A stretch of 64,000 nucleotides of DNA, from NCBI RefSeq assembly GCF_000420265.1, contig NZ_ATUP01000001.1:1302001-1366000 (forward strand), written 5' to 3'. Origin of the DNA: Oceanicaulis alexandrii DSM 11625. GTDB taxonomy: Bacteria > Pseudomonadota > Alphaproteobacteria > Caulobacterales > Maricaulaceae. Position numbers and translations under genes: made by a program. The stretch's first letter is position 1, and every line of letters begins with the position of its first letter. The notes below the pieces were generated by a model. That model was not told the DNA's origin and searched no databases. It saw only the letters and a list, made by a program, of their open reading frames with translations. Of this stretch, positions 19,088 to 31,808 are shown piece after piece.

Positions 19088-19179
19088 CGCGGCGCGCCTC
19101 CTTGACGTGGTGTCTTACTATCATGAATCCGGTGTCAAAACCCCATCGCTCATTATAGCGGGATTGATCCGAGCTCGGA

Positions 19180-19216
19180 CTATAAGTGCATAAAATAATT
19201 ACATAAATTTTTCAAT
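19180..19216. other. AT-rich tract upstream of the TonB-dependent receptor
   Basis: The stretch from TATAAGTGCATAAAATAATT to AATTTTTCAATC is almost entirely A/T in an otherwise GC-rich region, about 140-175 bp before the receptor start. It probably contains the promoter or a regulator/nucleoid-protein site. I could not fix a clean -35/-10 pair. Confidence 0.35.
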
Positions 19217-19353
19217 CTGTCGCCGAAGCATCGCTGTTCCGTCACACGCCGCCCCTAACCATTCACGGTCGACGCCGCCACCACATTTGAGCGGACGCGT
19301 TGCGGTGCATGGGGTCCCGCAGCGTCATCGACGCGTTTTTGGAGGGACAATTC

Positions 19354-21768
19354 ATGCGCATCCTGCTTCTTGCCGGCGCTGCCGCCGCAGCTCTGGCTCA
19401 TCCAGCCTTCGCCCAGACACAATCCGAAGCGGACACCAGCGCCGCCGCACGCGATGACATCATCGTCGTGACCGGCACGCGCCGTGAAGGCCGGACAGCT
19501 CTGGATTCTCTGGCGCCCGTAGACGTGATCTCCGGCGTGGCCCTCGACAGCGTGGTGTCTGATGAACTGATGGATTCCCTAGCCGTTCTGAACCCGGCCT
19601 TCTCCATCCAGCGCCTGCCGATGGCGGACGGCGCCATTTTCATTCGCCCGGCGCGTCTGCGCACCCTGTCACCTGACCAGACCCTGGTTCTGGTCAATGG
19701 CAAGCGTCGCCACCGGGCGGCTTTGCTCGGCTCGCGCGGCGCCCAGTCCACAGACATGGCCGCGTTGCCTGCGTTCGCGGTGAGCCGGGTTGAAGTTCTG
19801 CGCGACGGCGCCTCGGCGCAATATGGCTCTGACGCGATCGCCGGCGTGATCAATGTGATCCTGGACGAGACGGTTGGACTGCGCGCCTTCGCCCAGGCCT
19901 CCCAGTATTACGAAGGGGACGGCGAAGAATATCAGATCGGCGCCCAGCTGGGCTTTGAACTGGGAGACGGCGGCTTCGCCACGGCGACGCTTGAGCATGT
20001 GACCGCCGAGCGCACCTCGCGGTCGCGCCAGCGCCCGGACGCCATCGCGTTCGAACAAGCGACCGGCATTCAGGTCGCCGACCCGGTGCAGAACTGGGGT
20101 CAGCCTGAACGTGAGGTCGTGCGCTTCGCCCTGAACGCCGCCGCTCCGATCACCGACTTTGTTGAAGGCTACAGCCACGCCACCTTCACTCAAGGCCAGG
20201 GCGTCAGCGACTTCAACTGGCGCAACCCGGCTTTCACCAGCGCCTACCGCACCAGCCCGCTGGACCCCGCTTATGATCTGAGCGCCATTTTCCCGGCCGG
20301 TTTCTCCCCGCAGTTCGGGTCCGAGGATCAAGACTATGAGGTTGTGGCCGGTCTGCGCGGCGACCTGGATTTCGGGCTGAGCTGGGATTTCAGCGCGTCT
20401 CGCGGCCGCAATGAAGTCGATTACTTCATCTACAACACCATCAACGCTTCGCTGGGTTCGCAAAGCCCGACCAGCTTCAACGCCGGCGTGCTGGCCCAGC
20501 AGGAAACCAATTTCAATCTCGACTTCGTCTATGGCTGGGCGGTCGACGCCTTCGCAGCACCCGTCAACGTCGCTTTCGGCGTGGAAGCGCGTGAAGAGAC
20601 GTATGAAATCGAAGCCGGCGACGAAGCGTCCTACGCCGTCGGTCCGCTCGCTGTTGACGGCCTGCCGTCAGGCTCCAACGGGTTTCCGGGTTATTCTGAT
20701 CGGCAGGCGGGAAGCTTCTCTCAGGACAGCTATGCCGGTTATGTCGATCTGGAAGCGCCTGTCACGGATCGTCTGACGCTGGCTGCGGCGCTGCGTTTTG
20801 AAGACTTCTCGGAGTTCGGCTCCACCACTGACTACAAGCTGTCAGGCCGGTATGAGCTGACCGAGGCTCTGGCGATCCGCGCCACCACCTCCACCGGCTT
20901 CCGCGCCCCGACCCCCGGTCAGCTGCGCTCTGAACGCACCTCGCAAGGGCTGGACAGCACGACGCTGAACCTTGTCACCTCAGGGCGTTTCAGCCCAGTC
21001 GGTCCGGTGGCGGACATCATCAACGCCCGCGCAACCGGTCCTGAGATCACGGCGCTGGACGCTGAAACCTCCCAGAACTATTCGCTGGGTCTGACCTACC
21101 AGCATGCCAGCGGTTTCACCCTGACAGCCGATCTGTATCAGATCGACGTGGAAGACCGCTTTTCGACGCTTGGCAGCTTCACCCTGACCGATGCCGAACG
21201 GGCCCAGCTGGCGGCGCTCGGGGTTCCGGGCGGAGAGAGCATCACCCGCGTCTCCTTCTTCCAGAACCAGTTTGACACCCGCACCCGCGGTCTCGATCTG
21301 GTGGCGAGCTATGGCTTTGATCTGGGCGAAGGCGCCGTCACGCTGACGGGCGCGTATAACTACAACGAGACCGAGGTCACCGGTGAAGCCGCCAGCGGCG
21401 TGTTCAACGATGTGTCGCGCACCGTGTTCGAGCAGGGTCTGCCTCAGCACAACGCCGTTCTCAGCGCCGATTACGCTCTGGGCCGGTACAGCGTGAACGC
21501 TCGCGCCCGATATTATGGCGAATGGACGGACACCGATGACAGCGCCAACGTCATCTATCAGGACTTCGGGGCGGAAATCTTCGTGGATCTCGGTCTTCGC
21601 GTCGAGCTGAACGAAAACTTCGCCATGCGCGTCGGGGCCGAAAACATCTTCGACGCCTATCCCGATGAATCGCGCCGCCAGGCCAATCGCGGCCTGATCT
21701 ACTCACGCAACGCCCCGTACGACACCGACGGCGGCAAGTACTATCTGCGCCTGGAAGCCAATTTCTAG
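19354..21768 (+). CDS. TonB-dependent outer-membrane receptor
   Basis: An 804-residue ligand-gated outer-membrane transporter. The ATG at 19354 follows GGAGGGACA and opens a classic signal peptide (MRILLLAGAAAAALAHPAFA). A TonB-box-like DDIIVVTGTR comes next, then the plug domain with VLVNGKRRH and VEVLRDGASAQYGSDAIAG, then the barrel with alternating Tyr/Phe strands and a final aromatic residue (LRLEANF). The plug motif resembles receptors of the large alphaproteobacterial TBDT families; ligand unknown. The next gene, a PLP enzyme with an export signal, follows after 78 bp, which hints at amino-acid or peptide-derived ligands. Confidence 0.92.
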   Translation: MRILLLAGAAAAALAHPAFAQTQSEADTSAAARDDIIVVTGTRREGRTALDSLAPVDVISGVALDSVVSDELMDSLAVLNPAFSIQRLPMADGAIFIRPARLRTLSPDQTLVLVNGKRRHRAALLGSRGAQSTDMAALPAFAVSRVEVLRDGASAQYGSDAIAGVINVILDETVGLRAFAQASQYYEGDGEEYQIGAQLGFELGDGGFATATLEHVTAERTSRSRQRPDAIAFEQATGIQVADPVQNWGQPEREVVRFALNAAAPITDFVEGYSHATFTQGQGVSDFNWRNPAFTSAYRTSPLDPAYDLSAIFPAGFSPQFGSEDQDYEVVAGLRGDLDFGLSWDFSASRGRNEVDYFIYNTINASLGSQSPTSFNAGVLAQQETNFNLDFVYGWAVDAFAAPVNVAFGVEAREETYEIEAGDEASYAVGPLAVDGLPSGSNGFPGYSDRQAGSFSQDSYAGYVDLEAPVTDRLTLAAALRFEDFSEFGSTTDYKLSGRYELTEALAIRATTSTGFRAPTPGQLRSERTSQGLDSTTLNLVTSGRFSPVGPVADIINARATGPEITALDAETSQNYSLGLTYQHASGFTLTADLYQIDVEDRFSTLGSFTLTDAERAQLAALGVPGGESITRVSFFQNQFDTRTRGLDLVASYGFDLGEGAVTLTGAYNYNETEVTGEAASGVFNDVSRTVFEQGLPQHNAVLSADYALGRYSVNARARYYGEWTDTDDSANVIYQDFGAEIFVDLGLRVELNENFAMRVGAENIFDAYPDESRRQANRGLIYSRNAPYDTDGGKYYLRLEANF

Positions 21769-21789
21769 GACTGCAAATCTGCACAGGCA

Positions 21790-21817
21790 CAGGGGCGCCG
21801 TTGATGCGGCGCCCCTG
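21790..21817 (+). terminator. Hairpin between the receptor gene and the PLP-enzyme gene
   Basis: CAGGGGCGCCG (21790-21800) pairs with CGGCGCCCCTG (21807-21817). The T run afterwards is weak (TTGCGTTT), so it may attenuate expression of the downstream gene relative to the receptor. Confidence 0.5.
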
Positions 21818-21846
21818 TTGCGTTTCCCAGCTGAGACGAGTTCCCG

Positions 21847-23112
21847 ATGCCGCTTATGACCCGCCGATCAATCTTCTCCGCCGCCGCCGGCTTGTCTCTG
21901 ACCGGAGCAGCTCGCGCTTTGCCCGCTGTCAGCGCCAACCCGCTTGACGCCGCGCAAGATGAAACATTCTGGGCTGAAGTATCCGGGCTCTACGATGTCA
22001 CTGATGAGATCATTCACCTGGAACACGGCAATTGGGGGATGATGGCGCGGCCGGTGCAAAGCGCCTATCTCGCGCATGTGGAGACCGTGAACCGCCGCAA
22101 TTCCTATTATGCGCGGCGCGAATTCTGGGCCGAGGCGCGCGCCATCAAGGACCAGATCGCCTGGACTCTGGGCTGTGACGCGGACGAAATCGTCCTGACT
22201 CGCAACGCCACCGAAGCGCTGCAAGCGTTGATCGGCGGCTATAACAAACTCTCATCGGGCGATGGCGTGCTGTACGCGGATCTCGATTACGGCTCCATGC
22301 AGACCGCCATGGGCTGGCTGCGCGAGCGGCGCGGCGCGGATCTTGTGACTATCAACCTGCCCGAACCCGCCACGCGCCAGGGCCTGATCGACGCCTATGA
22401 ACAGGCGCTGATCGCCAATCCGCACGTTCGCCTGATGCTGCTCACCCATCTCAGCCATCGCACCGGGCTGGTCCTGCCGGTGTCTGAGATTTGCGCCATG
22501 GCGCGCGCCCGGCAGGTGGATGTGATTGTGGATGCGGCCCATTCCTGGGGGCAGATCGACTTTCAGGCCGCTGATCTTGGCGCTGATTTCATCGGCTTCA
22601 ACCTGCACAAATGGATCGGCGCGCCGCTGGGCGTCGGCCTGATGTATGTGCGCAAAGACCGGATCGAGGATATTGATCCGTTCATGGGCGAAGCCGTGCG
22701 CGGCCCCGGCGACCTGTCGGCGCGCGTCCACACCGGAACGACCAATTTCGCCGCCATTCTCGCCATTCCTGCAGCCCTCGATCTGCACGCCGCCATTGGC
22801 CCGGCGCGCAAGGCGGCGCGTCTGAGATATCTGCGCAGCCTCTGGGTGGACGCCGCGCGGGAGGCGGGGTTTGAGGTGCTCACCCCTGATGAGCCGGGGC
22901 TGCACGCCGCCATCACCTCGTTCAGAGCGCCCGGCCAAACAAGCCCTGAAGACAATATCACCCTGGCGCGCCGCCTGCTGGAGGAGCACCGGATCTTCAC
23001 CGTCCATCGCACAGGCGTCGCCCAAGGGGCGTGCGTGCGCGTGACGCCGGGCGTCTTCACATCACCAGACGATGTGCGCGCGCTGGCGGACGCCCTGCCG
23101 CGACTGATCTGA
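21847..23112 (+). CDS. Tat-signal-bearing class V aminotransferase (isopenicillin-N-epimerase-like)
   Basis: A 421-residue fold-type I PLP enzyme. Lys255 in GFNLHKWIGAPLG is the Schiff-base lysine, VDAAHSWGQID gives the ring-stacking/Asp block, and ARVHTGTTNFA is the phosphate-binding region. The N-terminus (TRRSIFSAAAGLSLTGAARA) is a twin-arginine signal with an AxA-like end, so the enzyme should be folded with its cofactor and exported to the periplasm. Starts at 21847 or the second ATG at 21856. Family relatives act as epimerases, desulfurases or lyases; the reaction here is open. It directly follows a TonB-dependent receptor. Confidence 0.82.
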   Translation: MPLMTRRSIFSAAAGLSLTGAARALPAVSANPLDAAQDETFWAEVSGLYDVTDEIIHLEHGNWGMMARPVQSAYLAHVETVNRRNSYYARREFWAEARAIKDQIAWTLGCDADEIVLTRNATEALQALIGGYNKLSSGDGVLYADLDYGSMQTAMGWLRERRGADLVTINLPEPATRQGLIDAYEQALIANPHVRLMLLTHLSHRTGLVLPVSEICAMARARQVDVIVDAAHSWGQIDFQAADLGADFIGFNLHKWIGAPLGVGLMYVRKDRIEDIDPFMGEAVRGPGDLSARVHTGTTNFAAILAIPAALDLHAAIGPARKAARLRYLRSLWVDAAREAGFEVLTPDEPGLHAAITSFRAPGQTSPEDNITLARRLLEEHRIFTVHRTGVAQGACVRVTPGVFTSPDDVRALADALPRLI

Positions 23113-23124
23113 GTGAAGCGGGCG

Positions 23125-24069
23125 TCATGCCCGCTTGGCTTCCACCCAGTCGATCAAAAGCGCTGACACGTCGACGCCGGAAAAGCGGCGCAATTCCTGG
23201 ATGCCGGTCGGCGAGGTGACGTTGATCTCGGTCAGATAATCGCCGATCACGTCAATGCCGACAAAGACCAGGCCGCGGCGTTTCAGCTCCGGGCCGATGA
23301 TGCGGCAAATCTCAAGATCGCGCTCGGTGAGGTCGGACTTCACCGCCTTGCCGCCCACATGCATGTTGGCGCGCACCTCGCCCTCGGCCGGCACGCGGTT
23401 GATCGCGCCCACCGGTTCGCCATCCACCAGGATGACGCGCTTGTCGCCATTGCGGACATCGGGAACAAAGGCCTGGACCATCAAGGGGTCGCGGCTGAGT
23501 TGCTGGAACAATTCCACCAGCGAGGCGAGGTTCTCCGCCGTCTCGCGAATGCGGAACACTCCCGCCCCGCCATTGCCGAACAGCGGCTTGACCACGATGT
23601 CGCGATTATGGCGCTCGAAGAAGTCGCGGATATCCTTTTCCGAGGACGTGATCAGGGTGGGCGGCATGACACCTTCAAAATGGGTGACGAAGAGTTTTTC
23701 CGGCGCATCGCGCACATGACGCGGATCATTGACCACCAGCACCTGGTCCATGACATGCTCAAGCATGTGGGTGGTGGTGATATAGCTCATGTCAAAAGGC
23801 GGGTCCTGACGCAGGAAGATCGCGTCCACCCCATGCAGATCCAGCCCTTCAGGCTCTGACAGAGTCACATGCGCGCCTTGCACCCGCTCCAGCGTTTTCA
23901 CCCGCTGCGCCATGGCGCGGACCTTGCCGTTCTCAAGGCTGAGATCCTTCGGCTCATACACCCAGATTTCATGGCCGCGCCCGAACGCCTCCAGCGCAAT
24001 GTCGAAGGTGGAGTCCGCGTTCACATCGACACCGGTGATCGGGTCCATCTGGAAAGCAATCGTCAGCAT
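23125..24069 (-). CDS. gshB: Glutathione synthetase
   Basis: ATP-grasp ligase joining gamma-glutamylcysteine and glycine. The 314-residue protein from the ATG at 24069 begins MLTIAFQMDPI, typical of GshB (xxIAFQMDPI). VVKPLFGNGGAGVFRI is the ATP-grasp glycine-rich loop, PLMVQAFVPDVRNGDKRVILVDGEP the ATP/metal block and GIDVIGDYLTEINVTSPTGI the C-terminal metal-ligand block with Glu and Asn. A longer frame to 24165 has no site for ribosome binding. Converges with the PLP-enzyme gene. Confidence 0.95.
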   Translation of the reverse strand: MLTIAFQMDPITGVDVNADSTFDIALEAFGRGHEIWVYEPKDLSLENGKVRAMAQRVKTLERVQGAHVTLSEPEGLDLHGVDAIFLRQDPPFDMSYITTTHMLEHVMDQVLVVNDPRHVRDAPEKLFVTHFEGVMPPTLITSSEKDIRDFFERHNRDIVVKPLFGNGGAGVFRIRETAENLASLVELFQQLSRDPLMVQAFVPDVRNGDKRVILVDGEPVGAINRVPAEGEVRANMHVGGKAVKSDLTERDLEICRIIGPELKRRGLVFVGIDVIGDYLTEINVTSPTGIQELRRFSGVDVSALLIDWVEAKRA

Positions 24070-24211
24070 GAAAGGCCTTTCGGGCAATGGCGGGGTCACT
24101 GCGCAGACAGGTAGGGGATCACGGGGCGGAATGGAAGATGGGCGCCAAGACTTCACAGACCACACACGATCTGGTTGTGTTCATAGACCATGGCGAAAGC
24201 CGCAATCTGAG

Positions 24212-26020
24212 ATGGTTGTCTTGATGACTGTAAACCGGTCCATATCTCAAGCGCGAGCCTTCGAAAAACGCGGCGATGTGCAAACCGCTGCGCGCATATA
24301 TGAATCCATTCTGGACTCTCATCCTGGCAATGCGCGCGCACGGCGGGCCCTTCAAAAACTGAAGGAGGCTCCAGCCCCTGACCAATCTCAAGCACCTGAC
24401 GCGGGACTGTCAGACCTTTTTTCGGGGGTGGCGTCCGGTCAGGCGGCGGACGTCGTCAAACGGGCCTTGGCGCAACAAGCGCGATACGCAAAAACGCCCC
24501 TCTACTGGGTCTTGCTTGCGGATGCGCAGAAACGTCTCCGGCAGTTGGACGCGGCGCTGGACAGCTTTCGCAAGGCCGTTCGCCTGAATCCCGATTTTGC
24601 GCCTGCACAGTATAATCTGGCGAACACCTTGTTTGACCTTGAACGTTTCGATGAGGCGGAGCCTGTTTACCAGCACGCCCTGACCCTGACGCCGCCACAC
24701 GCCCCTGCGCTGAACAATCTGGGCGTCATTCAGGCCTCCCGGCGCGAATACGCCCTGTCCGTAGAGACCTTTCGCCAGGCGATCCGCATCAACCCCGGTT
24801 TGAGCGAAGCGCACTTCAATCTGGGCAGTAGTCTCTATGAACTCAGCCTGTGGCGCGAAGCAGCGGAGAGTCTCGAACAGGCTGTCAGACTGGCGCCCCG
24901 ACACCACCGAGCATTCAAGCTGCTCGGCGACGCTCATCTCAAGCTGGGTGATTTCGAGGCTGCCGAGGCCGCCTTCCGGAAGGCCATTTCGGCGAAACCC
25001 GATTTCGTGGACGCCTACAGATCACTCGGCCTGATGCGCGCATACGCGGCGGATGACCCAATGCTGAGCCGACTTGAAACGCTGGAGGGGCGGCCAGACC
25101 TCTCCCTGGACAGTCGGTGTCAGCTGCACTTCACTCTGGCGAAAGCCTATGACGACCAGCGCAAGGACAATCTGGCGTTCGACCATTACGTGAAAGGCAA
25201 TGCGACACGCAGCGACATCACGAACTATGACATCGCTGAAGATCAGGCGCTGTTTGAAGCGCTGACCGCTGCGGCCAAACACCTGGCGGCGCTCGCGCCG
25301 GCTACGCGCGACACGACGCTCAAGCCGACCCCCATATTCATTCTGGGAATGCCACGCTCGGGCACGACCCTGGTTGAGCAGATTCTGGCGTCGCATTCAG
25401 CTGTCAGCGACGGCGGCGAACTTCCCTATGCTCTTGAGTTCGGGTTGCAGCTGGCCAGAGGACAGGTCCCGGCAAGCCCGGACGCGTTGCTGGACTTCCA
25501 AACCCAGTATCTCGAAGCTGTTGGCGAACACGATCAGGGTCTGGCCTGCGTCACAGACAAAACGCCCCACAACTTCCTTCTCACCGCGCTGATTTGCAGC
25601 GCGCTGCCGCACGCCAGGATTGTTCACACCCGGCGCAAGGCCGAAGCCGTTTGCTGGTCGAACTTCACCCGATACTTCACGTCAAAACATACAGGCTACA
25701 GTAATGATCTGGAGGATACGGTCGCCTATTACCGGCTGTACCGGACATTCATGGATCAGATGGGCGCCTTGTTCCCCGGCAGAATTCATGAGCTGGATTA
25801 TGACCAGCTGACCGAAAATCCTGAGAAGCTGATCCGCGGTCTGCTGGACAGTCTCGACCTGCCGTGGGAGCCGGCGTGCCTGACGCCAGAAGAGAACAGG
25901 CGCAGCGTCGCAACCGCCTCATTCCGTCAGGTCAGGGCTCCCATCTACACAGGGAGCTCGCAGGCCTGGCGACGGTTTGAGCCCTTCATCGGCGATGCAT
26001 TCGCCGCTTTCCAGCAATAG
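24212..26020 (+). CDS. TPR-repeat sulfotransferase-domain protein
   Basis: A roughly 602-residue two-part protein. The N-terminal half (about residues 10-270) holds several 34-residue TPR units, seen as repeated pieces such as NPDFAPAQYNLANTLFDLER, ALNNLGVIQASRREY and AHFNLGSSLYELSLW. The C-terminal half has the sulfotransferase 5'-phosphosulfate loop GMPRSGTTLVEQIL (from residue 379) and a later RRKAEAVCWSNFTRYF block resembling the 3'-phosphate site. Such fusions are common in marine alphaproteobacteria; the acceptor (glycan, lipid or protein) is unknown. ATG at 24212 or 24224; neither has a strong ribosome-binding site. Confidence 0.82.
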   Translation: MVVLMTVNRSISQARAFEKRGDVQTAARIYESILDSHPGNARARRALQKLKEAPAPDQSQAPDAGLSDLFSGVASGQAADVVKRALAQQARYAKTPLYWVLLADAQKRLRQLDAALDSFRKAVRLNPDFAPAQYNLANTLFDLERFDEAEPVYQHALTLTPPHAPALNNLGVIQASRREYALSVETFRQAIRINPGLSEAHFNLGSSLYELSLWREAAESLEQAVRLAPRHHRAFKLLGDAHLKLGDFEAAEAAFRKAISAKPDFVDAYRSLGLMRAYAADDPMLSRLETLEGRPDLSLDSRCQLHFTLAKAYDDQRKDNLAFDHYVKGNATRSDITNYDIAEDQALFEALTAAAKHLAALAPATRDTTLKPTPIFILGMPRSGTTLVEQILASHSAVSDGGELPYALEFGLQLARGQVPASPDALLDFQTQYLEAVGEHDQGLACVTDKTPHNFLLTALICSALPHARIVHTRRKAEAVCWSNFTRYFTSKHTGYSNDLEDTVAYYRLYRTFMDQMGALFPGRIHELDYDQLTENPEKLIRGLLDSLDLPWEPACLTPEENRRSVATASFRQVRAPIYTGSSQAWRRFEPFIGDAFAAFQQ

Positions 26021-26065
26021 AGCTTTCTCCTTGCCGGGATTTTGCGCGCCCCATAAACTCGCCCA

Positions 26066-26569
26066 ATGCGCGAGTTTTTCTCACCTCTGCTTGGTCTGCT
26101 GGCTCTGGTCGCCTGCGCCCCGCTGGAGCCGCATCAACAGCGCATACTGGACGCCTGCGGCACGCTGGAGCGCGATTACACGCGGTCTGTCCAGGCGGCA
26201 GAACGCGGAGACCTCGCCGCGATAGACTGCGAGATTGCGGTCGCCGATGGCGTGTTCATGGGGCCGGACGACCCGCCCAACGCCATCACCAGCGTCAGCT
26301 ATCGCTATCTTCGCTGGATCGTCACAGGTGAACAGCCCGCAGACATCGCCGAACTGGCCGGGCTTCTCGACCAGCAAGCCCTCGAAGCCAACCTGTCGCT
26401 GATTTTCACCCATCATCTGGAAGCGACCGGCCAGCTTTATGCCGGACGCTATGACGCGGCGGGGTGCTTCCTGCGCCCGCCGCGCATGGATCAGCTCTAC
26501 CAACGCGCCCAGCCGCACCCTGACATGGCGGCGTGCGAGACCGCCGTGCGGGACCATCCGTTTGGCTAG
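26066..26569 (+). CDS. Lipoprotein, tandem paralogue 1
   Basis: A 167-residue protein with a signal peptide and the lipobox LVAC (Cys near residue 17). The mature protein contains EPHQQRILDACGTLE, DCEIAVADGVFMGP, YRYLRWIVTGEQP and the end FLRPPRMDQLYQRAQPHPD...AVRDHPFG. All four blocks recur in the next gene, so the two are products of a tandem duplication. Four further cysteines are shared between the copies and may form disulfides. Family not recognised; an envelope role is inferred from the lipobox. Confidence 0.72.
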   Translation: MREFFSPLLGLLALVACAPLEPHQQRILDACGTLERDYTRSVQAAERGDLAAIDCEIAVADGVFMGPDDPPNAITSVSYRYLRWIVTGEQPADIAELAGLLDQQALEANLSLIFTHHLEATGQLYAGRYDAAGCFLRPPRMDQLYQRAQPHPDMAACETAVRDHPFG

Positions 26570-26590
26570 AGGGCAGGAAAGGCTGGAAAG

Positions 26591-27097
26591 ATGCGTATGA
26601 TCCTCGTCTGCATGGCTCTGGCTCTCGTTCTGACGGGCTGCAGCCGTCTTGAACCCCATGAGCAGCGCATACTGGAGGCGTGCGGGACGCTAGATCCAGA
26701 TTTTGACGCCACGCGTCAGGCCGCCTATCGCGGCAAGCTCGCCGCCATTGATTGTGAGATCGCCATCGCCGACGGCGTTTTCATGGGGCCGTATGATGAC
26801 CCGCCCGATGCCCTGTTCAGCGTGACCTTCCGCTATCTGCGCTGGATCGTGACAGGCGAGCAGCCCGACGACATTCTCGAACTCGCCGCCCTCTGCGACC
26901 AGTTCTATCTGATCAATCGTCTGACCATTCACTATGATCAGTATCTGATCAAGACGGGGCAGTCCTATTCAGGGCTTTTTGACAAAAACGGCTGTTTCCT
27001 GCGCCCGCCCCGCATGGACCAGCTCTATCGCGCCGCCCAGCCCCATCCGGACTTGGCGGCGTGCGAGAGCGCGGTGCGGGACCATCCCTTCGGTTAG
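26591..27097 (+). CDS. Lipoprotein, tandem paralogue 2
   Basis: A 168-residue paralogue of the preceding gene, with lipobox LTGC (Cys near residue 17) and the same EPHEQRILEACGTL, DCEIAIADGVFMGP, RYLRWIVTGEQPDD and CFLRPPRMDQLYRAAQPHPD blocks. The middle (about residues 95-125) is the divergent part: copy 1 has DQQALEANLSLIF, copy 2 CDQFYLINRLTIH. A GGAAAG site precedes the ATG. The gene ends just before the GC shift that marks the SIR2-HerA block. Confidence 0.72.
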   Translation: MRMILVCMALALVLTGCSRLEPHEQRILEACGTLDPDFDATRQAAYRGKLAAIDCEIAIADGVFMGPYDDPPDALFSVTFRYLRWIVTGEQPDDILELAALCDQFYLINRLTIHYDQYLIKTGQSYSGLFDKNGCFLRPPRMDQLYRAAQPHPDLAACESAVRDHPFG

Positions 27098-27177
27098 GTC
27101 AGGCGGCGGCGCGTGCGCGTTTAGGGCAGGAAGAATAAAAAGAGGCCTTCCACTCATCGAGTGCCAGTTCCTCTCTC

Positions 27178-27206
27178 TTGCTTTGAAATCCCCTATAAAG
27201 AATATT
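27178..27206 (+). promoter_or_regulatory. Candidate promoter of the SIR2-HerA operon
   Basis: TTGCTT (27178-27183) and AATATT (27201-27206) are 17 bp apart, 20 bp before the first ATG of the SIR2 gene, in an A/T-rich spacer that also contains TATAAA at 27194. Hexamer agreement is only partial. Confidence 0.3.
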
Positions 27207-27225
27207 CCTCCACACGCTTTCCCCA

Positions 27226-28263
27226 ATGAGAGATCGCATGGAACTAGAAACTCTTGCTCGGCTCTGCCAAGATTGCGTACAGAAAAATCCAGTGATCGTA
27301 CTCGGCAGTGGGGCTTCTATCCCCCATGGCATTCGCGGTATGGGCGACCTCGCTACATGGCTTCGCGATTCTGTAATCACGGAGGGGGACGAGGAGAGAG
27401 ACGCGTGGCTGCTTGTCAGAACGGCACTCGCCAACGGAGACCATTTGGAAGCCGCACTTGATGGCAAACAACTTCCCCCATCTTTGGTGGTAAAGATCGT
27501 CCGTTCGACGTGGGACTTCATTGCACAAGACGACTATGAGCTATTGAAATCCGCCATCAAGTCAGAAACTATCTTCCCCCTTCGATCATTGTTTCGTGGC
27601 CTCTTTCGAAGTACTAATCGCAATATTCACGTAGTAACCACCAATTATGACCGAGTGGCAGAATACGCTTCTGATTCTGGTGGGTACATCCACAGTACAG
27701 GCTTCCTCCCAGGATACCTTCGACGGGCGGATGGTGCTGAAAACCTACTATTCAAACAGGGCAACCAGCCAGCTCGAACGGTGTCAATTTGGAAGGTTCA
27801 TGGTTCGTTAGATTGGTTTATTGACCCAAGTGGTGGCGTTCTGTCGCTCCCGATGACGAGTGAACTCCCAGAAGGCCTCACCCCACTCATCGTGACTCCT
27901 GGCGTAAGCAAGTACCAACGGACTCACGACGAGCCTTTCCGTAGCGCCATCCAGGGTGCGGATCGCGTTCTTCAATCTGCCTCGGCATTTGTTTGTTTGG
28001 GGTATGGATTCCGGGATAGTCACATACACCCGAAGCTGGAGAATCGATGCCGCGTACATGATGCGCCGATACTGGTGGCCGCGCGGACTCTGACGCCAGA
28101 AGCTAAGAATTTCCTCCGAAACAACGCTGGACGGCATTATCTCGCGCTTGAACACGATGTTGATGGAACAAAAGTCTATAATCGAGACCATCCAGATGGG
28201 GTCATAGTGTCCGGCGGAAATTATTGGGATTTATACGAACTCAATCAATTAGTCGGTTTCTAG
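27226..28263 (+). CDS. SIR2-domain protein of a SIR2-HerA defence module
   Basis: A 345-residue SIR2_2-type protein. VLGSGAS (25-31) is the nucleotide-binding turn, VVTTNYDRVAE (136-146) holds the catalytic Asn140, IWKVHGSLDW (188-197) the catalytic His192, and CLGYGFRDSHIHP (257-269) the closing family block. Known SIR2-HerA systems use this domain to destroy NAD+ on phage infection; that activity is inferred here from the intact motifs and the partner gene. Start 27226 is the longest; the ATG at 27238 (MELETL) with AGAGA just before it is equally possible. Base composition is clearly lower in GC than in the flanks (27 of 60 bases G/C at 27241-27300 against 39 of 60 at 26221-26280), suggesting transfer. 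Confidence 0.9.
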   Translation: MRDRMELETLARLCQDCVQKNPVIVLGSGASIPHGIRGMGDLATWLRDSVITEGDEERDAWLLVRTALANGDHLEAALDGKQLPPSLVVKIVRSTWDFIAQDDYELLKSAIKSETIFPLRSLFRGLFRSTNRNIHVVTTNYDRVAEYASDSGGYIHSTGFLPGYLRRADGAENLLFKQGNQPARTVSIWKVHGSLDWFIDPSGGVLSLPMTSELPEGLTPLIVTPGVSKYQRTHDEPFRSAIQGADRVLQSASAFVCLGYGFRDSHIHPKLENRCRVHDAPILVAARTLTPEAKNFLRNNAGRHYLALEHDVDGTKVYNRDHPDGVIVSGGNYWDLYELNQLVGF

Positions 28264-28272
28264 GGGGTACTT

Positions 28273-30018
28273 ATGAGCATTCTGGATTTCAATGATGACG
28301 AGAGCCTCGGCAAGATCATAGCCGTCGACACAGCGACTGTAACGGTGCGCGTTGATGAGCTGGAAAGACTAAAAAGAATTCAGGTCAATCGACTCGCAGC
28401 ACTCCGAAGCTCAAAAGCTGGCCAGCACCTCATCGGTATCGTTTCAAAAATTACACGCAAACCCGGCCTTGAACTCGAAGAGACTGAACAAGTTGATGAT
28501 CCGGACACAGCGCCTCCAGAAAACAATTTAGTCCGTGTAGCTCTAATAGGGACGCTAGCGGACAAAGACGGCCTTAAAGAAAACGTCTTTAAGCGAACGC
28601 TCGAAACCGTTCCCGAAATTGACGCTGATTGCTTTGCTCTTGAAGGAGAACGCCTCACGAACTTCATGAAGGTCATCTCACAGGTCTCTGGGGATGGCCC
28701 GCAACTTGATCTTGGCCGATATGCTCTTGATGAGGGTGCGCAAGCGTATCTGAACGGAAATCGATTGTTTCAGCGACACGCCATTGTCGTTGGCAGCACG
28801 GGATCGGGAAAGTCTTACACAACTGCACGGCTCTTGGACCAAATTGCAGAGTTGCCGCAGGCTAATGTGATCGTGTTTGACATCCACGGCGAATATCAAA
28901 CCCTAACCAGCGACGAATTTCGGCATTTTCGGATCGCTGGGCCAGGAGACATTGGCCAAGATCGGGGACTAGCTGATGGTGTGCTGCATTTGCCGTACTG
29001 GCTCCTTGGGTATGAAGCGCTTGTCTCATTATTCGTAGATAGATCCGACCAAAATGCGCCTAATCAATCGATGCTTATGACTCGCTGCATCACGGATGCG
29101 AAGAGGGCTAACCTAGACGCAACAGATCATGCGGATATTTTAGCGAACTTCACGATCGATAGCCCAGTTCCGTTTGACATCGATACAGTTCATCAAGCGC
29201 TGATTGATCTTAATACGAAGATGGTTCCAGGGGCCGGCACCAAAGAAAAGCAAGGACCATACTTCGACAAACTAAGTCGCCTTATTGCTAGGTTCGAAGC
29301 CAAACGAAGCGACCGGCGCTTAGGGTTCCTTTTTCAACCCCCAGCAGCTTGCATGGAATTGTCGTGGTTAACTGAAGTTACGCACCTCTTAGTCGGCGGC
29401 CGTGGCTCGCAAGCCGACAATAAGGGGGGAATAAAAATTATCGATTTTTCTGAGGTTCCGTCCGACATACTGCCATTAATGGTAAGCCTAGTTGCAAGGC
29501 TGATCTTCACAGTCAGTCAATGGACCCGTCCCGAAAAGCGCCACCCAATTGCATTGTTCTGTGACGAAGCACACCTCTACATCCCCGAACGAACCTCCTC
29601 TGACTCAGTGGACGAAATTTCTGTCGGTATTTTTGAGCGTATTGCCAAGGAAGGTCGCAAGTACGGTGTAGGCCTTGTGGTCATTAGTCAGCGGCCCTCT
29701 GAGGTTAACCGAACCGTCCTTAGCCAGTGCAACAATGTTATCGCTATGCGGCTAACCAATGGAGACGATCAGTCTGTCATCAGAAGACTGCTGCCAGATA
29801 GCCTTGGAGGTTTCGGTGACCTCTTGCCTGTCCTCGACATTGGCGAGGCTCTAGTGGTTGGGGATGCAAGCTTGTTACCTACGAGGGTTATGGTCTCAGA
29901 GCCTCGCTTTAAGCCCAGTAGCGCAACTATCGATTTTTGGGACCATTGGCGTGGGGAAGTCCCAGAGTCTGATACGGAGAGCGCAGTGAAATCTTGGAGA
30001 CGACAAAGTAACCAGTAA
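28273..30018 (+). CDS. HerA-type FtsK/HerA-superfamily ATPase of a SIR2-HerA defence module
   Basis: A 581-residue hexameric-translocase-type ATPase. The N-terminal part (1-100) fits a HAS-barrel; GSTGSGKS (174-181) is Walker A, VIVFDIHGEYQ (199-209) the HerA-specific block after it, IALFCDEAHLYIP (426-438) Walker B with Asp431-Glu432, and VVISQRPSEVNRTVLSQCNN (469-488) the sensor/arginine-finger region. It follows the SIR2 gene by nine bases with GGGGG before the ATG, in the same low-GC block, so both proteins are likely made together and assemble as in described SIR2-HerA complexes. No nuclease of the NurA type is adjacent, which separates it from the archaeal DNA-repair HerA operon. Confidence 0.9.
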   Translation: MSILDFNDDESLGKIIAVDTATVTVRVDELERLKRIQVNRLAALRSSKAGQHLIGIVSKITRKPGLELEETEQVDDPDTAPPENNLVRVALIGTLADKDGLKENVFKRTLETVPEIDADCFALEGERLTNFMKVISQVSGDGPQLDLGRYALDEGAQAYLNGNRLFQRHAIVVGSTGSGKSYTTARLLDQIAELPQANVIVFDIHGEYQTLTSDEFRHFRIAGPGDIGQDRGLADGVLHLPYWLLGYEALVSLFVDRSDQNAPNQSMLMTRCITDAKRANLDATDHADILANFTIDSPVPFDIDTVHQALIDLNTKMVPGAGTKEKQGPYFDKLSRLIARFEAKRSDRRLGFLFQPPAACMELSWLTEVTHLLVGGRGSQADNKGGIKIIDFSEVPSDILPLMVSLVARLIFTVSQWTRPEKRHPIALFCDEAHLYIPERTSSDSVDEISVGIFERIAKEGRKYGVGLVVISQRPSEVNRTVLSQCNNVIAMRLTNGDDQSVIRRLLPDSLGGFGDLLPVLDIGEALVVGDASLLPTRVMVSEPRFKPSSATIDFWDHWRGEVPESDTESAVKSWRRQSNQ

Positions 30019-30039
30019 GCCAGCGAATCCCGCTTTCCC

Positions 30040-30260: not shown

Positions 30261-31808
30261 ATGTTCGACTCACTTTCAGAACGGCTTTCCGGCGTCTTTG
30301 ACAGCCTGACCGGGCGCGGCGCGCTGTCGGAAAAGGATGTGGACGCCGCCCTGCGCGAGATCCGCGTCGCCCTTCTGGAAGCCGATGTCGCCCTGCCTGC
30401 GGTGAAGGACTTCACGTCCAAGGTCCGCGAAAAGGCGATCGGCGAAGACGTCATCCGCTCGGTCAGCCCCGGCCAGCAAGTCATCAAGATCGTCCATGAC
30501 GGTCTGGTGGAGCTGCTTGGCGGCGAAGGCGAGCCCGAGGGCCTGAACCTCACCGGCGAGCCGCCCGTGGCGATTCTGATGGCGGGTCTTCAGGGCTCGG
30601 GTAAAACCACCACCACCGCCAAGCTCGCCAAACGCATTTCCGAGCGCGAGAAGAAAAAAGTCCTCGTCGCCTCGCTCGACACCCGCCGCCCGGCGGCGAT
30701 GGAGCAGCTGGCGCAGATGGCGGAAAAGGCCGGCGTTGCCTGCCTGCCCATCGTCAAGGGTCAGTCCGCCGTCGAGATCGCCAAGCGCGCCATGAGCGCG
30801 GGTCGCCTGCAAGGCTATGACGTGGTGATCCTGGATACCGCGGGCCGCACCTCCATCGATGAAGAGATGATGGGCGAAGCCGCCAAGATCGCCGATGTGG
30901 CGCGGCCGCGTGAAACCCTTCTGGTGGCTGACAGCCTGACCGGTCAGGATGCGGTGGAGACCGCCAAGCGCTTTGACGAGCGTCTGAAGCTGACCGGCCT
31001 GGTGCTGACCCGGATGGATGGCGATGGCCGCGGCGGCGCTGCGCTGTCCATGCGCTGGGTCACCGGCCTGCCGATCAAGTTCCTGGGCGTCTCTGAAAAG
31101 GTCGACGGGCTGGACGCGTTCGACGCGAAACGCCTGGCGGGCCGTATTTTGGGGCGCGGCGACATCGTCTCGCTGGTGGAAAAAGCCGCCGCCGAGGTCG
31201 ATCACGAGAAAGCCGAGCGCCTCGCCAAGAAAATGGCGAAGGGCAAGTTCGACCTTGAAGACATGGCCGACCAGCTGCGCCAGCTTCAGAAAATGGGCGG
31301 CATTTCCGGCATGATGGGTTTCCTGCCGGGCATGAACAAGGCGGCGAAGGCCCAGATGGCCAATGCCGGGTTCGACGACAAGGCGCTGAAGCGCCAGGAA
31401 GCGATCATCCTGTCGATGACCCGCGAGGAGCGCGCCAAGCCTGACCTCCTCAAAGCCAGCCGCAAGCGCCGCATCGCCATGGGCGCCGGCGTCGCTGTGC
31501 CGGAGGTGAACAAGCTTTTGAAAATGCACCGCCAGATGGCGGACATGATGAAGAAGATGGGCAAGAAGGGCAAAAAGGGCGGCATGCCCGGAATGCCTGG
31601 AATGCCCGGAATGGGCGGCGGCATGCCGGGCATGGGCGGCGGAATGCCCCCCGGTCTCGGCGATGCGGCCTCTGATCTTCTCAAAGGACACGCGCCCAAG
31701 GGCGCCGACCTGCCGGGGCTGGGCGGCCCAGGCGACCAGGGATTGCCGGGTATCGGCGGACCACTGGGGCCAGACGGCCTTCCGCTCGGCCTCTCGAAGA
31801 AAAAATGA
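30261..31808 (+). CDS. ffh: Signal recognition particle protein Ffh
   Basis: GTPase that binds signal sequences at the ribosome together with 4.5S RNA and docks on FtsY. In 515 residues: N domain 1-95, G domain with GLQGSGKTTTTAKLAKR, DTRRPAAMEQL, DTAGR and TRMDGDGRGGAAL, then the Met-rich M domain (GGISGMMGFLPGMNK, RKRRIAMGAG for RNA binding). The C-terminus is extended by a Gly/Met/Pro repeat tail (GMPGMPGMGGGMPGM) common in alphaproteobacterial Ffh. It opens the ffh-rpsP-rimM-trmD-rplS cluster. Confidence 0.97.
   Translation: MFDSLSERLSGVFDSLTGRGALSEKDVDAALREIRVALLEADVALPAVKDFTSKVREKAIGEDVIRSVSPGQQVIKIVHDGLVELLGGEGEPEGLNLTGEPPVAILMAGLQGSGKTTTTAKLAKRISEREKKKVLVASLDTRRPAAMEQLAQMAEKAGVACLPIVKGQSAVEIAKRAMSAGRLQGYDVVILDTAGRTSIDEEMMGEAAKIADVARPRETLLVADSLTGQDAVETAKRFDERLKLTGLVLTRMDGDGRGGAALSMRWVTGLPIKFLGVSEKVDGLDAFDAKRLAGRILGRGDIVSLVEKAAAEVDHEKAERLAKKMAKGKFDLEDMADQLRQLQKMGGISGMMGFLPGMNKAAKAQMANAGFDDKALKRQEAIILSMTREERAKPDLLKASRKRRIAMGAGVAVPEVNKLLKMHRQMADMMKKMGKKGKKGGMPGMPGMPGMGGGMPGMGGGMPPGLGDAASDLLKGHAPKGADLPGLGGPGDQGLPGIGGPLGPDGLPLGLSKKK

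Follow-up and report, generated by a model that had tools for sequence, protein, structure and literature searches.

A probable horizontally acquired SIR2-HerA defence operon beside ffh in Oceanicaulis alexandrii

Just upstream of ffh in Oceanicaulis alexandrii DSM 11625, two adjoining genes for a SIR2_2-domain protein and a HerA-type ATPase raise the question of whether this genome has gained an antiphage defence system at that site and, if so, of which kind. The genes lie in a stretch of 64,000 nucleotides (NZ_ATUP01000001.1, positions 1,302,001 to 1,366,000), which we call the window and number from its first letter. We consider it probable, at about 0.88, that the pair was gained by horizontal transfer and works as a defence operon of the SIR2-HerA (Nezha) type, acting through loss of nicotinamide adenine dinucleotide (NAD+). 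Seen directly are the gene content, the intact catalytic residues, the conserved pairing, the foreign composition, the patchy presence and the two-gene extent of the shared unit. A first-pass annotation made from the letters of the window had read the locus largely correctly; the pair is real, mildly unusual in a trait of its HerA and otherwise mostly ordinary.

The gene pair and its family

Both genes are intact and on the same strand (Table 1). The SIR2 open reading frame (ORF), open throughout 27226-28263, would encode 345 amino acids with the ATG at 27226 as its start, and in that numbering carries GSGAS at residues 27-31, Asn140 and His192. The HerA ORF is likewise open throughout, with the Walker A motif GSTGSGKS at residues 174-181 and Asp-Glu at 431-432; nine bases separate the SIR2 stop codon (28261-28263) from its ATG (28273). 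Gene integrity, spacing and residues are as the first-pass annotation gave them, and its ORF limits stand except for the SIR2 start at 27226. The ATG at 27238 appears the likelier start, because the copy on a Neotabrizicola plasmid is annotated from the matching codon, most alignments of near copies begin at residue 5 and GAGAG stands ahead of this ATG. Counting against it, the copy on a Ruegeria plasmid is annotated 34 codons further in, and annotators differ. With the start at 27238, the catalytic residues would be Asn136 and His188.

Pfam searches placed the first protein in SIR2_2 (35.4 bits against a cut-off of 24.5, E = 1.4e-08) and the second in DUF87 (104 bits, E = 1.7e-29) and HerA_C (33.5 bits against a cut-off of 22), both above cut-off. 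The highest-scoring matches were to the PADLOC models SIR2 (PDLC04087; E = 1e-126, residues 7-343) and HerA (PDLC04105; E = 4.5e-242, residues 1-580). In structural comparisons with the predicted SIR2 structure, the ten best entries were all SIR2-HerA systems or the SIR2 part of one. Thus SIR2-HerA proteins, rather than other SIR2 or ATPase families, were the best matches by sequence and, for SIR2, by fold, in agreement with the original domain calls. By structure alignment, identity to the solved SIR2s of the SIR2-HerA (Nezha) systems of E. coli, V. cholerae and Paenibacillus (PsSIR2) is 14-20%; the compared SIR2s have 381 and 428 amino acids, and the window SIR2 is shorter, at 341.

The pairing itself is conserved. 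We collected 41 loci with relatives of the SIR2, from four whole genomes, 36 genome contigs and one viral-collection contig; they are not independent, as near-duplicates such as two Primorskyibacter records are included. A HerA match lies directly 3' of SIR2 in 39 of these loci, some of the matches running off the locus end, which upholds the pairing first proposed. In alignments of chosen members, window pair included, the SIR2 Asn and His are invariant in all 22 SIR2s, and Walker A (174-181) and Asp431-Glu432 in all 21 HerAs. In these traits the pair fits SIR2-HerA (Nezha) in the broad sense: it has a SIR2 with the NADase Asn and His, an adjoining HerA on the same strand and a pairing that extends to distant relatives.

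Four loci (L058, L067, L068 and L047) hold apparently degraded or orphaned copies. The L068 HerA stops at residue 542 and is immediately followed by an ORF with the zinc ribbon of an IS1595-type transposase, and the L047 HerA is split across two frames.

The HerA might, in principle, be a housekeeping end-resection motor of the HerA-NurA type that adjoins a SIR2 gene by chance. HerA_C does score above its cut-off, and an archaeal HerA model matches, though below cut-off (112.5 against 970 bits). The locus differs from HerA-NurA in that no NurA stands among the neighbours scanned, as the first-pass annotation had noted; moreover, the gene is absent from congeners and SIR2-paired in 39 of the 41 loci, and we regard this explanation as hardly credible.

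For the V. cholerae system, PMC11559045 reports that alanine changes of the Asn and the His abolish immunity, that phage form more plaques when herA is deleted and that the system depletes NAD+. By analogy with such characterized relatives, the window pair would form a complex, hydrolyse and deplete NAD+ and protect against phage. SIR2 and HerA would probably be co-produced and assemble into a large complex; a 2025 review (PMC12198126) gives 12 Sir2 and 6 HerA subunits for Sir2-HerA and lists its activation as 'Unclear'. HerA may sense an infection-linked signal, perhaps DNA, and switch on the NAD+ hydrolase (NADase) activity of SIR2, whereupon NAD+ would drop and phage replication would halt, at the cell's expense.

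Several results weigh against this reading. The NCBIfam equivalog models SIR2_antiphage (NF042942; 27.4 against 500 bits), HerA_antiphage (NF042943; 176.3 against 800) and HerA_antiphage_2 (NF042944; 296.6 against 850) all missed their cut-offs by far, and the pair is therefore not of those equivalog types. Two of the 41 loci (L058 and L067) have a SIR2 with no adjoining HerA match. The HerA structure model is poor (predicted local distance difference test score 67.3). A promoter scan, at chance level overall, gave no + strand site ahead of the pair; a terminator scan was also at chance level. Finally, the nearest kin of the window HerA are partners of DUF4297 nucleases, and the solved SIR2-partnered HerAs are more distant from it.

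Table 1. Features of the locus in window coordinates, and plasmid copies of the pair (aa, amino acids; G007, a genome of the same genus; L018, its locus)
Feature	Coordinates	Strand	Description	Basis
SIR2_2-domain protein	27238..28263	+	341 aa; putative NADase effector	Pfam, PADLOC, conserved Asn/His, fold matches
HerA/DUF87 ATPase	28273..30018	+	581 aa; putative hexameric motor or sensor partner	Pfam, PADLOC, conserved Walker A/Asp-Glu
Inserted segment, limits	27112..30021			Congener G007 has 133 unrelated bases instead; L018 alignment stops after 27111, resumes 30022
ffh (SRP54)	30261..31808	+	Right-hand landmark; host composition; outside the system	Pfam SRP54, 5.7e-66
Plasmid copies (Neotabrizicola shimadae NZ_CP069374; Ruegeria pTHAF33_c)			SIR2 80-81% identical to that of the window	

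Origin, borders and distribution of the pair

The composition of the pair sets it apart from its surroundings. Its G+C content is 50.7%, against 62.6% for the window; measured over 500 bases at a time, the fraction is 0.48-0.52 across the pair and returns to about 0.65 in ffh. Both 60-base counts in the first-pass annotation, 27/60 at 27241-27300 and 39/60 at 26221-26280, are exact. The shift in codon use that it described is also present: SIR2 and HerA each score -1.54, the most foreign values among the 15 window genes scored, against -0.86 to -1.35 for ten reference genes of the window and a host-like -0.94 and -0.95 for the two lipoprotein genes. The nine near copies measured have G+C fractions of 0.535-0.561.

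We found ffh in 13 of the 15 genomes of the genus, including O. alexandrii's own, and compared the stretch upstream of it in the other 12, none of which has the pair there. Congener G007, whose Ffh is 97% identical, matches the window to 27111, just behind a lipoprotein stop codon, and then from 30022. Congener G014 joins 24137 to 30026 with 14 bases between, and is without the sulfotransferase-like gene and both lipoprotein genes. Both congeners thus have a near-empty site. Little or nothing else stands in the interval before ffh in L018, L019 and L022, and in five of the 12 congeners (L025-L029) the match to the window is confined to the part downstream of about 30138. The comparisons with G007, G014 and L025-L029 therefore show that the content of the interval from the glutathione synthetase gene to ffh differs from one congener to another. 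The 'core region beside ffh' of the first-pass annotation is right in that ffh adjoins and has host composition, but the interval before it is not constant.

Of 15 near copies that include both ends, 13 resemble the window in DNA from 27232-27265 to 30008-30026. This similarity begins about the SIR2 start codon and ends about the HerA stop codon, and the shared unit is therefore the gene pair itself.

No tRNA gene was found in the whole window and no repeat framing the pair, as first reported; the accompanying claim of no integrase holds for the 11 window ORFs scanned with Pfam. No relative of the SIR2 was found at 1e-5 in 50,697 phage records. Given the lack of a window tRNA, of framing repeats and of a phage-record match, we rejected a prophage or integrative element; weighing against this rejection, one viral-collection contig (L070) carries an 80% identical copy, and the Pfam scan for an integrase covered 11 window ORFs. 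A defence hot spot next to ffh was likewise rejected, as none of ten congener ORFs of the interval (in L020, L021, L023 and L024) matched a PADLOC model at 1e-3. Among these ten are genes for a Na+/H+ exchanger, a Usp protein and an IS110-type transposase.

A full-length SIR2 match occurs in none of the 14 congeners, and the pair in one of the 15 genus genomes. Among 61 genomes searched (its own, the 14 congeners and 46 others of the family and order), the only good match was its own genome. Weak matches at 26-27% identity came from G013 and G018 (E = 6e-6 and 6e-7); that of congener G013 (26%) covers residues 185-270 only, and that of G018, which lies near a weak HerA match on contig 2, may belong to a divergent pair of another type. 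Within 385 genomes drawn from the class, five reach 1e-20 or better, one of them its own. The nearest copies (79-82% identity) come mostly from Rhodobacterales, where three are plasmid-borne; one is from Thiohalocapsa. At the looser limit of 1e-5, relatives of the SIR2 are present in 165 plasmid records.

The absence of a full-length match from all 14 congeners led us to reject an orthologous core gene pair, and the circumstance that the first-pass annotation had named as contrary to its reading, the same pair in all relatives with host-like codons, was not encountered. Together, composition, codon use and absence from the congeners bear out a foreign origin, and we infer that the gain was recent. 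The novelty ascribed to this copy beside ffh did not hold up, near copies being common in Rhodobacterales genome contigs and plasmids. We found no publication on SIR2-HerA in Rhodobacterales and, judged by title, none for alphaproteobacteria.

We examined the plasmid neighbourhoods of two near copies, those of Neotabrizicola and Ruegeria. Both have the gene order and nine-base gap of the window, the Ruegeria HerA being 85.9% identical to the window HerA, and outside the pair DNA similarity to the window is nil. Other defence-type genes are near: PtuA- and PtuB-type genes come after the pair on the Neotabrizicola plasmid, and SngC-, SngB- and SngA-type genes on pTHAF33_c.

Presence in a single genus genome, and a promoter scan (at chance level) that found no promoter ahead of the pair, would also suit foreign DNA carried as a passenger, silent or decayed and without protective effect by now. 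However, neither frame is broken, the invariant residues inspected are all present, and order and spacing are as in near relatives; we judge a passenger distinctly improbable. As a SIR2-HerA defence operon, the pair would instead be a clear example from nature of an abortive-type defence of two genes in one genome, missing from near relatives and with closely readable borders.

The lineage of the HerA partner

The solved HerAs nearest to that of the window are 9C1M, 8ZIQ and 8XAU (E = 3e-66 to 4e-62), whose entry groups carry DUF4297 partners; PMC11291478 describes 8XAU as a DUF4297-partnered HerA. The next solved matches were the SIR2-partnered 8WIV (1e-49) and 8J4U (3e-30), the DNA helicase 9X1L (3e-27) and 8YHO (1e-26). 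In unrooted trees the window HerA groups next to the DUF4297-partnered clade, not inside it, and stands in another part of the tree than the HerAs of SIR2-HerA (Nezha), whose equivalog cut-offs it also misses. Support for this grouping is 99/95 in the larger tree (34 HerAs), which places seven further SIR2-partnered rows outside it, and 99/100 in a 20-row tree, with five outside. Long branches were flagged in the larger tree; the smaller omits the longest and has fewer family members. Partners are confirmed for three of the four members of the DUF4297 clade. An archaeal-type HerA outgroup was found in none of 349 in the phylum sample, and the trees are therefore unrooted. Rooting on the DUF4297 branch would make all SIR2-partnered HerAs one clade; thus an independent pairing is not established.

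The likeness to DUF4297-HerA (8XAU, 8ZIQ, 9C1M) runs through to the C-terminal end, where the last 40 or so residues of the window HerA align to the ends of DUF4297-type chains. These chains end in a hook that docks on the neighbouring subunit, according to PMC11291478. The hook argument is weak, as the SIR2-partnered 8WIV also aligns over this C-terminal stretch; the review presents a SIR2-HerA structure as having no hook (PMC12198126). The difference from DUF4297-HerA is the partner, SIR2_2 in the window and not a DUF4297 (Cap4-like) nuclease. The first-pass assignment to the known SIR2-HerA type is right as to kind, but the HerA is nearer to DUF4297-HerA than to the solved SIR2-partnered types. 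Judged by sequence comparison, the window lineage combines a compact SIR2 with a HerA nearest to those of DUF4297-HerA systems.

This kinship favours a system that acts mainly on DNA, as DUF4297-HerA does, with HerA translocating on phage DNA, the SIR2 protein itself acting as a nuclease or recruiting one, and NAD+ hydrolysis being secondary. Besides the tree grouping and the alignment to the chain ends where the hook is described (PMC11291478), the review noted above ascribes a nuclease activity, too, to Sir2-HerA (PMC12198126). Against this stand the lack of a Pfam nuclease match in the SIR2 partner and the NADase Asn and His in 22 of 22 members, and we consider a primary effect on DNA unlikely.

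Within the preferred reading of an NAD+-depleting SIR2-HerA operon, we tentatively entertain, while doubting, that the pair represents a separate, uncharacterized subtype: a compact NADase and a DUF4297-type HerA with its C-terminal end, spreading as a bare two-gene cassette. If so, the subtype would connect, in evolution, the HerA defences that use an NADase with those that use a nuclease, and one HerA chassis with its trigger could drive either effector. The combination of a compact SIR2 with a DUF4297-like HerA would lend itself to effector swaps, to see whether sensing by the system is fixed by HerA on its own.

A more distant SIR2-HerA pair, on Klebsiella plasmid NZ_CP129749.1 (L081), has a HerA sister to the window's clade. 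The same-strand run there is annotated DUF499, hypothetical, SIR2, HerA and DUF1156 (methylase-like), as if the pair were nested in a larger defence operon.

Neighbouring genes and other HerA-type ATPases

The neighbours scanned with Pfam comprise a TonB receptor, a class-V aminotransferase, glutathione synthetase, a TPR-sulfotransferase, SRP54 (ffh), ribosomal protein S16, an IMS-family polymerase and two lipoprotein-like ORFs that match no Pfam family. The latter lie in tandem at 26066-27097, with DNA 72-78% alike over four aligned stretches; G007 has one copy and G014 none. Two further strain-specific stretches lie near the pair, about 19100-23130 (TonB receptor and class-V aminotransferase) and 24138-26020 (TPR-sulfotransferase); both are gone between shared flanks in G007 and G014. 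The 133-base filler of G007 (L018:11629-11761) is matchless in the compared part of the window, and no plasmid match to it was found. An open stretch of about 40 codons in it ends just before the shared flank and might be what is left of the end of a gene since lost; the filler as a whole is perhaps the scar of another cargo.

HerA-type ATPases 31-43% identical to that of the window occur in 55 of 136 other genomes of the family at 1e-30 and in none of the 14 congeners. The nine best of these loci (L089-L097; about 1.5 kb on each side at most) have no SIR2 motif. An NDUS4-type tail adjoins HerA in seven of the nine, NDUS4 and DUF192 being Pfam-confirmed in L090 only. At 1e-60, a relative of that protein is present in 23 class genomes out of 190, and in seven of the 12 class loci fetched (L098-L109) a putative sensor histidine-kinase box lies just upstream. 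These HerAs appear to form an unpaired lineage that is passed on vertically and may serve signalling, not defence. At least one of the 55 family genomes (G018) also has, on contig 2, a HerA match near the weak SIR2 match.
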